From the NCBI GenBank assembly GCA_027622715.1, contig JAQBYN010000006.1, positions 1 to 64,000 on the forward strand: a DNA stretch of 64,000 nucleotides, read 5' to 3'. This document shows, in pieces, positions 43,546 through 46,394 of this stretch (the stretch's first letter is position 1; every line of letters starts with the position of its first letter). Below the pieces are notes generated by a model. The model was given only the letters and a program-made list of their open reading frames with translations, made no database searches and was not told the DNA's origin. This stretch comes from Pseudomonadota bacterium. GTDB lineage: Bacteria > Pseudomonadota > Alphaproteobacteria > SHVP01. A program made the position numbers and the translations under genes.

Positions 43546-44142
43546 TCATGCCGGCACCACACCATGCCCACGCAAGAAGTCCAGCAGCGGCAACAACGGC
43601 AAACCGAGGATCGAAAAGAAATCGCCCTGGACGGCGGCGAACAGCTGAATGCCGCGTCCCTCGAGTTGATAGGCCCCTACTGACGCGAGAACCGTGTCGC
43701 CTGCCGATGCAAGATAAGACGCAATGGCCGCGTCATCTAATGTGCGCATCGTCAACGTCGCGTGGGCGGAGTCGCGCCAGATCAACGTGCCCTCCTTAGC
43801 CACGGCCGCAGCGGTATGAAGATGATGAGTGCGGCCTGACAACGACGCGAGCTGGCCTTGGGCCGCCGCGATTGATTCGGGTTTGTCGAACCAAACCCCC
43901 TCGCATTCAAGGATCTGATCTGCGCCAACGACAAACGCATCGGGCCAGTTGGAGGAAATCCGCGCGGCCTTTAGATCGGCCAGCGCTTGCGCAGCCTCGA
44001 TCGGTTTAGCCCCTTCGGCATGCATGCTGGTTTTGATCGACTCTTCATCGACGCGCGCCGGCTGTGCGGTGAAATCGAGACCGGCATTGCGCAGCAATTT
44101 GCTCCGTGTGGCGCTTGACGACGCAAGAACGAGTGCACTCAC
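43546..44142 (-). CDS. Maf family nucleotide pyrophosphatase
   Basis: Start GTG 44142, in a GTGA overlap with ppsR, giving a 198-residue protein (VSALVLASSSATRSKLLRNAGLDF). VLASSSATR is the Maf motif 1; the catalytic Asp is in FVVGADQILEC; LSGRTHHLHTAAAV and GAYQLEGRGIQLFAAVQGDFFSILGLPLLPLLDFL complete the ITPase-like fold. Maf enzymes hydrolyse dTTP/UTP or modified nucleotides and are linked to septum control. Neighbour order fits Caulobacter. Confidence 0.93.
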   Translation of the reverse strand: MSALVLASSSATRSKLLRNAGLDFTAQPARVDEESIKTSMHAEGAKPIEAAQALADLKAARISSNWPDAFVVGADQILECEGVWFDKPESIAAAQGQLASLSGRTHHLHTAAAVAKEGTLIWRDSAHATLTMRTLDDAAIASYLASAGDTVLASVGAYQLEGRGIQLFAAVQGDFFSILGLPLLPLLDFLRGHGVVPA

Positions 44143-44960
44143 GTTGGTCGGTCCCACTTGGCATGCAATTTCAAGATCGCTGCCGCAGTTTCTTCGATCG
44201 AACGGCCGGTCACATCGATAACCGGCCATTGATGACGCGTGAACAGACGCCGCGCCGCCGCGATTTCCTTCTTTATTTCGTCTTCATCGGCATAGGTCGT
44301 GTTGGCGCTCTCGTTGAGCAAGAGCAGGCGGCTACGCCGCAATTCCACCAAACGCTTAACGCTGTTGACCAAACCGACGACAAGCGGTCCCCGAACTTTT
44401 TCGAGTTCCTCCGGCGCGGCCTGCCCGGACACCAACGGAATGTTGGCCGCTTTGATGCCGCGATTAGCCAGATACATGCTGGTCGGAGTTTTTGACGTTC
44501 GCGATACACCGACGAGCACGACATCGGCCTCGTGAATCGACTGGAGCGATTGGCCATCGTCGTGTTGCAAACAAAAGTGCATCGCGTCGATGCGCTGAAA
44601 GTATTCTTCGTCAAGAGTATGTTGACTACCCGGCTGGTTCTTCGATTCGGTATGAAGAAAATCACGCAAGGTTGCGATAGTCGGATCCAAGACATCGACG
44701 CAGGGCATTTCGAGGCTGCGACAAGCGTTGATGAGATCACGCCGCAAATCGCCGTCAACCAGCGTAAATAGGACAACACCAGGCGACTGCTGAATACCGT
44801 CGATTGCCAACTGTAATTGCGCCGAGCTGCGCACCATCGACCAGATGAATTCGTCCGACTCGTACCCTTCGAACTGGGTGATCGCGGCGCGCGCCAACAC
44901 CTGCAACGTTTCCCCGGTCGCGTCTGAAACAAGGTGTAAATTGAATGGGTTAGCGGTCAA
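44139..44960 (-). CDS. ppsR: Pyruvate, phosphate dikinase regulatory protein (DUF299)
   Basis: Bifunctional ADP-dependent kinase and Pi-dependent pyrophosphorylase acting on PPDK or PEP synthase. Start TTG 44960, just after GAGGAG; a TTG at 44990 is less likely. The 273 residues include NLHLVSDATGETLQVLARAA, the P-loop-like GVSRTSKTPTSMYLA and PLVVGLVNSVKRLVELR. The gene corresponds to the first annotated gene beside the Caulobacter origin, and it is transcribed away from the gap that I call oriC. Confidence 0.95.
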   Translation of the reverse strand: MTANPFNLHLVSDATGETLQVLARAAITQFEGYESDEFIWSMVRSSAQLQLAIDGIQQSPGVVLFTLVDGDLRRDLINACRSLEMPCVDVLDPTIATLRDFLHTESKNQPGSQHTLDEEYFQRIDAMHFCLQHDDGQSLQSIHEADVVLVGVSRTSKTPTSMYLANRGIKAANIPLVSGQAAPEELEKVRGPLVVGLVNSVKRLVELRRSRLLLLNESANTTYADEDEIKKEIAAARRLFTRHQWPVIDVTGRSIEETAAAILKLHAKWDRPT

Positions 44961-45362
44961 CGGGCGCTCCTCGCCTGCGGCTGTGTACAACTATGATGAA
45001 ACAAGAGGATATCAACCGACTTGCGCGAGGCGCCCTTTTGATCCCCGCTGAGGGCAAATGGATCAGAACAGAACCGCACAACCGAACAACGTTATACGCG
45101 ACGCCGGACATCGGGTGTGAACTTCGAGATGGGTGCGACAACGTCCGACTCTACCGTGTTTCACAGCCTCTTTCGGCAACCAGTGTCCACGGTTACCGCC
45201 TTTCTCATCCCCAATTTTATATCTATCAACAGACCCCTATGAACAAACCAATATCTGGGGATATTTAAACAATCCCCGTTTTGGAGGGCCCCTACTACAA
45301 CAACTATAGATTCTTATAATTCTCTATATAAGAAAGAGGCAAAGTTCCGGTCTGTATTTCTC
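44961..45362. other. Probable chromosomal replication origin (oriC)
   Basis: A 402-base non-coding gap between ppsR (left, minus) and hemE (right, plus). In Caulobacter crescentus the origin lies between the ppsR/DUF299 homologue and hemE. Seen here: TGTGTACAA (44982-44990), an 8/9 match to the DnaA box on the minus strand; weaker 7/9 matches TGTTTCACA (45158-45166) and TTATACGCG (45092-45100); AT-rich stretches at about 45213-45270 and 45295-45360 that could unwind; inverted repeats AATATC-TGGG-GATATT (45250-45265) and GGGGAT...ATCCCC (45257-45277); GANTC methylation sites at 45147 and 45309. No credible gene lies inside. Confidence 0.75.
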
Positions 45363-46394
45363 ATGACAACAAAACCATTTCTTCGCGCGTTGGCGGGCGA
45401 GGTTCAACGTGTGCCGCCCATCTGGTTGATGCGCCAAGCCGGGCGCTATCTGCCCGAGTACCGGGCGCTGCGGGCAGAGGCCGGCAGTTTTCTCGACCTT
45501 TGTTACAATCCAGCACACGCGGCGGAAGTGACGTTGCAGCCAATCCGGCGTTTTGGCTTTGATGCGGCGATTATTTTTGCCGATATTTTGCTCATTCCCC
45601 AGGCGCTAGGTCAGGACCTTCGGTTTGCCGAAGGCGAGGGGCCTATCCTTGCCCCAATCCGCGATGCGAAGGCGCTGTCGGCGTTGACGTTGGAGGGGCT
45701 CCACAAGCGCCTAGAACCAATCTACGAGACCGTCAGCCGAGTTCACGGGTTATTGGACGACCAGACCGCGCTGATTGGCTTTGCTGGGGCGCCCTGGACC
45801 GTAGCGACCTACATGGTTGAGGGGGGCGGCAGCCGGAATTTCGAACACACAAAAGTCTGGGCGTTTCGTGATCCGGCCGGATTTGCCGCGCTGATCGATC
45901 TCATCGTCGAGGCGACGATCGCCTATCTGTCGCGCCAGATCGATGCCGGGGCAGAAGCGATCCAACTATTTGACACTTGGGCCGGGGTGCTGCCCGAAAC
46001 TGCGTTCGCGCGCTGGAGCATCGAGCCGACCCATCGCATCGTCGCCGCGCTGCGTGCGCGCTACCCGGCGATCCCGGTGATCGGGTTTCCGCGCGGCGCC
46101 GGCGTTGGCTTGCAAGACTATGCGGCGCGCACCGGGGTTCAGGGTGTTGGCCTGGATAGCGCGGTGCCCTTGAGCTGGGCGCGACAAGCCGTGCAAAGCC
46201 AATGCACCGTGCAAGGCAACCTCGATCCGCTGATGGTCGTGGCAGGCGGCACCGCGATGACCAACGAAGTCCGCCGGATTGTTTCAGCCTTCAAGGATGG
46301 ACCGTTCGTGTTCAATCTCGGTCACGGTATCCTGCCGCAAACGCCGCCCGAGCATGTTGCAGCCCTGGTCGCGGCGGTCCGCGCGCCGGCATGA
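45363..46394 (+). CDS. hemE: Uroporphyrinogen decarboxylase
   Basis: HemE decarboxylates uroporphyrinogen III to coproporphyrinogen III in haem synthesis. The 343-residue barrel has [21 protein letters not shown] (substrate Arg pair), [14 protein letters not shown] with catalytic Asp, [19 protein letters not shown] and GNLDPL near the end. ATG 45363 has only a weak ribosome site. Its stop overlaps the hemH start (ATGA). Confidence 0.97.

Follow-up and report, generated by a model that had tools for sequence, protein, structure and literature searches.

The window, a stretch of 64,000 nucleotides (positions 1-64000 of the 117,423-bp contig C42, in a draft assembly of 86 contigs), contains a 402-bp intergenic gap between two divergently transcribed genes, the minus-strand gene ppsR, which begins with TTG at 44960, and the plus-strand gene hemE, which begins with ATG at 45363. 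The limits that the initial annotation had set for this gap are correct, and the order it had read around it, secB-dnaQ-coaE-aroE-maf-ppsR on one side and hemE-hemH-hemJ-rho on the other, is borne out by NCBIfam models. The gap is non-coding, as had been claimed: its sole sizeable open reading frame, a mechanical one of 91 aa at 44993-45268, is not kept in two congeners and was rejected as a gene. No Rfam RNA was found in the part of the window from 40 to 50 kb. GC content is 0.49 in the gap as compared to ~0.62 in the surroundings; its AT content (0.51-0.53) is above that of the genome and ranks first among 31 sampled gaps. The AT-rich runs and inverted repeats described earlier are there as well, notably TTCTTATA..TATAAGAA at 45311-45334. 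The features discussed below are collected in Table 1.

Table 1. Features in and beside the ppsR-hemE gap, with window positions and the observation on which each assignment rests
Feature	Position	Strand	Basis
ppsR (DUF299/COG1806), left boundary, transcribed away from the origin	44139..44960	-	NCBIfam NF003742, E=4.9e-98
Predicted oriC, intergenic, 402 bp	44961..45362		Corrected skew jump; local DnaA/W-box rank; DnaA-box enrichment in homologous gaps
Weak DnaA box TTGTACACA, best of the gap	44982..44990	-	7/9 to TTATCCACA
TCCCCG, W-box-like core	45042..45047	+	Invariant in three genus members
GTTATACGCGA, candidate regulator site, core TTATACGCG at 45092-45100	45091..45101	+	Core invariant in three genus members
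Weak DnaA box TCATCCCCA, contains W-box TCCCCA	45205..45213	+	2 mismatches to TTATCCACA
Weak DnaA box CTATCAACA	45223..45231	+	2 mismatches to TTATCCACA
Weak DnaA box ATATCCCCA, contains W-box TCCCCA	45256..45264	-	2 mismatches to TTATCCACA
Degenerate box CAATCCCCG preceding the trio array, 4 mismatches to TTATCCACA	45270..45278	+	Box-spacer-trio score exceeds 100/100 shuffles
13-bp spacer TTTTGGAGGGCCC, GC-rich at its end	45279..45291	+	Box-spacer-trio scoring
DnaA-trio-like array CTACTACAACAACTA	45292..45306	+	13/15 match to (CTA)5; reached by 0/100 shuffles
AT-rich probable unwinding element, inverted repeat TTCTTATA/TATAAGAA	45307..45334		Within the longest nearly invariant block of the genus
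hemE, right boundary	45363..46394	+	TIGR01464, E=5.3e-125

At 402 bp and between divergent genes, the gap falls within the 200-1000 bp given for intergenic hemE-COG1806 origins of alphaproteobacteria, and hemE and COG1806 also flank the Caulobacter origin, which has been mapped by experiment (PMC1914354). With Cori of Caulobacter crescentus (hemE and CC0001, the COG1806 gene) it shares these boundaries, a similar size, an AT-rich stretch and weak DnaA sites that include TCCCCA W-boxes, in agreement with the initial remark that weak boxes are not unlike Caulobacter; it differs in that the best box matches at 7/9 and no TGATCCACA G-box is present in the gap. In Rickettsia prowazekii, ori lies between hemE and RP001, again COG1806, in a gap of ~384 bp with AT above that of the genome (PMC1914354). 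Boundary genes and raised AT are thus common to both, whereas the genome studied here is GC-rich (~62%) and every site in its gap differs from TTATCCACA at two or more positions. On the evidence set out below we take the ppsR-hemE gap to be the chromosomal oriC, with a probability of about 0.93. The proposal, made at the outset for this very junction, is supported by strand-corrected skew, the position of parS, the local rank in DnaA boxes and W-boxes, and conservation in relatives.

First, strand composition switches at the gap. The origins of several alphaproteobacteria could not be located from GC skew (PMC1914354), and raw cumulative skew is noisy or misleading in a congener (G001) and in members of two further genera of the family (G009 and G003). 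Third-position GC (GC3) skew was instead computed separately for the genes of each strand and then combined so that gene orientation cancels, over 400 kb of G001 and over 223 kb of the genome studied here, the latter stretch obtained by placing the dnaA-carrying contig C54 directly to the left of C42, according to synteny with G001. In an unsupervised scan, the largest left-to-right jump lies within ~0.5 kb of the ppsR-hemE gap in both genomes; when gene values were permuted, it was reached at the gap in 0/300 runs in either genome, and anywhere in 0/300 (own genome) and 2/300 (G001). Normalised GC3 skew also passes from lower to higher in G009 and G003, which offer weaker support because their peaks are displaced (in G009 0.2 kb from hemE with 20-kb scanning windows and ~13 kb off with 30-kb ones; in G003 7 kb and 16 kb off, respectively) and because the left-side value of G003 is about zero. 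The sampled tRNAs of G001 are all on the minus strand left of the gap (3) and all on the plus strand right of it (4). No 16S rRNA match was found in the G000 or G001 assemblies, so rRNA orientation gave nothing; a missing 16S is common in metagenome-derived drafts.

The initial annotation had named a skew minimum elsewhere as evidence against the gap, and on this point the answer is divided. On the 117-kb contig the cumulative GC minimum is at 45384 and the keto minimum at 45377, but on the 1.4-Mb contig C2 of G001, the remainder of which was sampled, the raw cumulative minimum falls at 433602, ~171 kb left of hemE and beside an integrase; the shift in strand composition thus appears at the gap in the orientation-corrected jump, with the long-range raw minimum of G001 elsewhere. 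Considering that dnaA (483439) shares a contig with this minimum and that the raw skew trend of our own contig C54 resembles that of G001's left side, one could assign the origin to a site ~120-170 kb farther left, either close to dnaA or at the raw minimum itself, and regard the ppsR-hemE gap as keeping remnants of an ancestral origin only. We consider this very unlikely. The 433.4-434.0 kb gap is GC-rich, lacks W-boxes and has just one DnaA-box match, a weak one, and none of the gaps sampled around dnaA equals the hemE gap in rank. In both genus members the normalised skew switches most strongly at hemE, and it is hemE rather than dnaA that has parS in its vicinity. Moreover, the minimum adjoins a tyrosine-recombinase-like integrase beside an apparent tRNA 3' end (432-434 kb of C2; locus L104) and is probably the border of a genomic island rather than an origin. 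In both genus members, normalised GC3 skew turns positive again between about -75 and -150 kb, and a block of considerably more than 100 kb left of the origin, dnaA included (~434-575 kb of C2 in G001; C54 in the own genome), has a skew sign opposite to that of its arm. Since this holds in both genus members, we infer an old inversion of the left-arm block, common to the genus, which would explain the pattern.

Second, the genome's only two perfect parS sites, at contig positions 72788 and 72825, lie at the mnmG-rsmG junction, 27 kb from the gap. The statement that mnmE/mnmG/parAB are missing beyond rho was wrong: mnmE (69.4 kb), mnmG, rsmG, parA and parB (to 75.2 kb) are on the same contig, just past the 64-kb window. 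The arrangement is therefore like that of Caulobacter, in which mnmE-mnmG-rsmG-parAB with parS stand near the origin, and differs from it in that rho and mnmE are ~20 kb apart, with other genes in between. A congener likewise carries a perfect parS pair 27 kb away, and in two other genera parS and hemE share a contig and are 18-21 kb apart. The DnaA encoded on C54 is full length, with the domain IV motif GGRDHTTV, and aligns nearly end to end with the solved DnaA chain 8btg_A. One family genome (G005, 98% complete) yielded no match to hemE, whether at E<=1e-80 or at 1e-60, and has kept a perfect parS pair and dnaA.

Third, the gap stands out for its DnaA sites, weak as these are. Among sampled intergenic gaps that reach 150 bp or more, taken from stretches of four genomes, the ppsR-hemE gap comes first in each for the count of DnaA boxes plus W-boxes (31 gaps in the own genome, 55 in G001, and 11 and 12 in the others). 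The 8/9 DnaA-box match reported initially holds against the looser TTATNCACA; against TTATCCACA the best site reaches 7/9, and at its position two congeners carry TTGTGCACA, while the family member L014/L097 has TTATCCACA without any mismatch. Four gap sites have 2 mismatches to TTATCCACA where 1.1 are expected in shuffles, which for the own gap by itself gives no more than p=0.03; the DnaA-site case is strong only when relatives are included. Family-level and order-level searches gave the same 10 genomes, and the homologous set comprises 23 distinct alphaproteobacterial ppsR-hemE gaps. These contain 49 DnaA boxes with no more than 1 mismatch (2.4 expected, the maximum in 300 shuffles being 9), 142 with at most 2 (29.2 expected) and 34 TCCCCA W-boxes (8.9 expected), as compared to 0 or 1 box in the 700 bp upstream of five hemE loci without adjacent ppsR. 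Replication of the chromosome almost certainly begins in this gap; as origins of alphaproteobacteria usually have this position, the identification is solid but ordinary, the sites for the initiator protein being unusually weak.

In the alignment of three genus members, a nearly invariant block comprising CTACTACAACAACTA followed by TAGATTCTTATAATTCTCTATATAAGAA extends from the triplets through the inverted repeat, which puts it ~29-71 bp ahead of the start codon of hemE. Promoters and origins can overlap, and the AT-rich conserved block could equally be the hemE promoter; taken to its end, this reading would make the block a promoter or regulatory region for hemE (and ppsR) without origin function. 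So strict a version is extremely unlikely, given that it leaves the DnaA-box enrichment in 23 gaps, the skew switch and the proximity of parS unexplained, that a sigma-70 scan found no plus-strand promoter-like site in 44900-45420, and that no comparable cluster occurs at the five hemE loci that lack ppsR as a neighbour.

As part of the predicted origin, the hemE-side block is likely an unwinding module formed by a weak box, a spacer, triplets and the AT-rich inverted repeat. Box, spacer and DnaA-trios in this order have been reported for the basal unwinding system, or BUS (PMC8287927, PMC6669920, PMC8235120), with spacers that are most often 13 bp long (PMC8287927). The BUS of B. subtilis and H. 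pylori offers the same succession of a box, a 13-bp spacer with a GC-rich end, 5'-CTA-3' triplets and an AT-rich stretch; the module here departs from it in its degenerate box and in its triplets, CTA CTA CAA CAA CTA (bottom strand 3'-GAT GAT GTT GTT GAT-5'), two of five being CAA and thus without the central T, a position reported as strictly conserved. The published BUS rule asks for three or more consecutive 3'-NAN-5' triplets no farther than 16 bp from a DnaA box that has 2 mismatches at the most; here the adjacent box has 4 mismatches and only two consecutive bottom-strand triplets have the central A, and because the rule is followed in part we call the module trio-like. A box, an 11-15-bp spacer and triplets score at p<=0.05 in 19 of the 23 gaps, p-values that are descriptive only because the score was designed after viewing these gaps. 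No box-to-array spacing stands out across the 23 gaps, as is to be expected of an array repeating every 3 bp, and a unique 13-bp box-to-triplet spacing was accordingly rejected as not statistically distinct from the others.

Sequence gives good support for the location of the origin, while the way in which it opens is inferred from B. subtilis and H. pylori. DnaA may bind several weak sites, namely the ppsR-side box and the TCCCCA-type boxes in the hemE-side half; as these are individually weak, binding would have to be cooperative. A DnaA filament starting at the 45270-45278 box could then cross the 13-bp spacer, reach the bottom-strand triplets and open the AT-rich block beside hemE, whereupon helicase would load, two forks would depart in opposite directions and ParB-parS, ~27 kb away, would segregate the new origins. 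We think it fairly probable that opening proceeds through this hemE-side module. The two triplets without the central T, together with the spread of weak boxes across the whole gap, might instead suggest an origin at the same place that is opened by E. coli-like looping and not by DnaA-trios. This appears rather unlikely, as the gap and the seven relatives checked contain no IHF site of the consensus form WATCAN5WTR and the box-spacer-triplet arrangement recurs in 19 of 23 gaps.

Finally, the gap has neither a CtrA nor an IHF consensus site. Not every origin element, the IHF site included, need be present (PMC1914354). The CtrA consensus TTAA-N7-TTAA, scored in its consensus form only, occurs 9 times in the genome and not in the gap, and GcrA (PF07750) was not found in the genome by a search that found it in Caulobacter. 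These absences set the gap apart from Cori. One RAMA-domain protein (C65:1904-2206) is a candidate CcrM-type methyltransferase. Of the GANTC sites claimed for the gap, two are present, without significant local excess (~1 expected at the window rate); across the window GANTC is depleted ~1.7-fold (155 versus 271 expected). GTTATACGCGA, with its invariant core, is a possible regulator site, and its TATACGC recurs in the family member L021. Only tentatively would we describe the whole as a pared-down origin at the Caulobacter position, with weak TCCCCA-type DnaA sites and a conserved triplet array, without CtrA, IHF or GcrA input.

The analysis would thus fix the origin of this alphaproteobacterial lineage from a draft genome, and indicates that orientation-corrected third-position skew can place an origin to ~0.5 kb where raw skew misleads by ~171 kb. 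For the wider group, the 23 gaps suggest that a box-spacer-triplet unwinding module is a common part of hemE-ppsR origins, and a CtrA consensus site an uncommon one.
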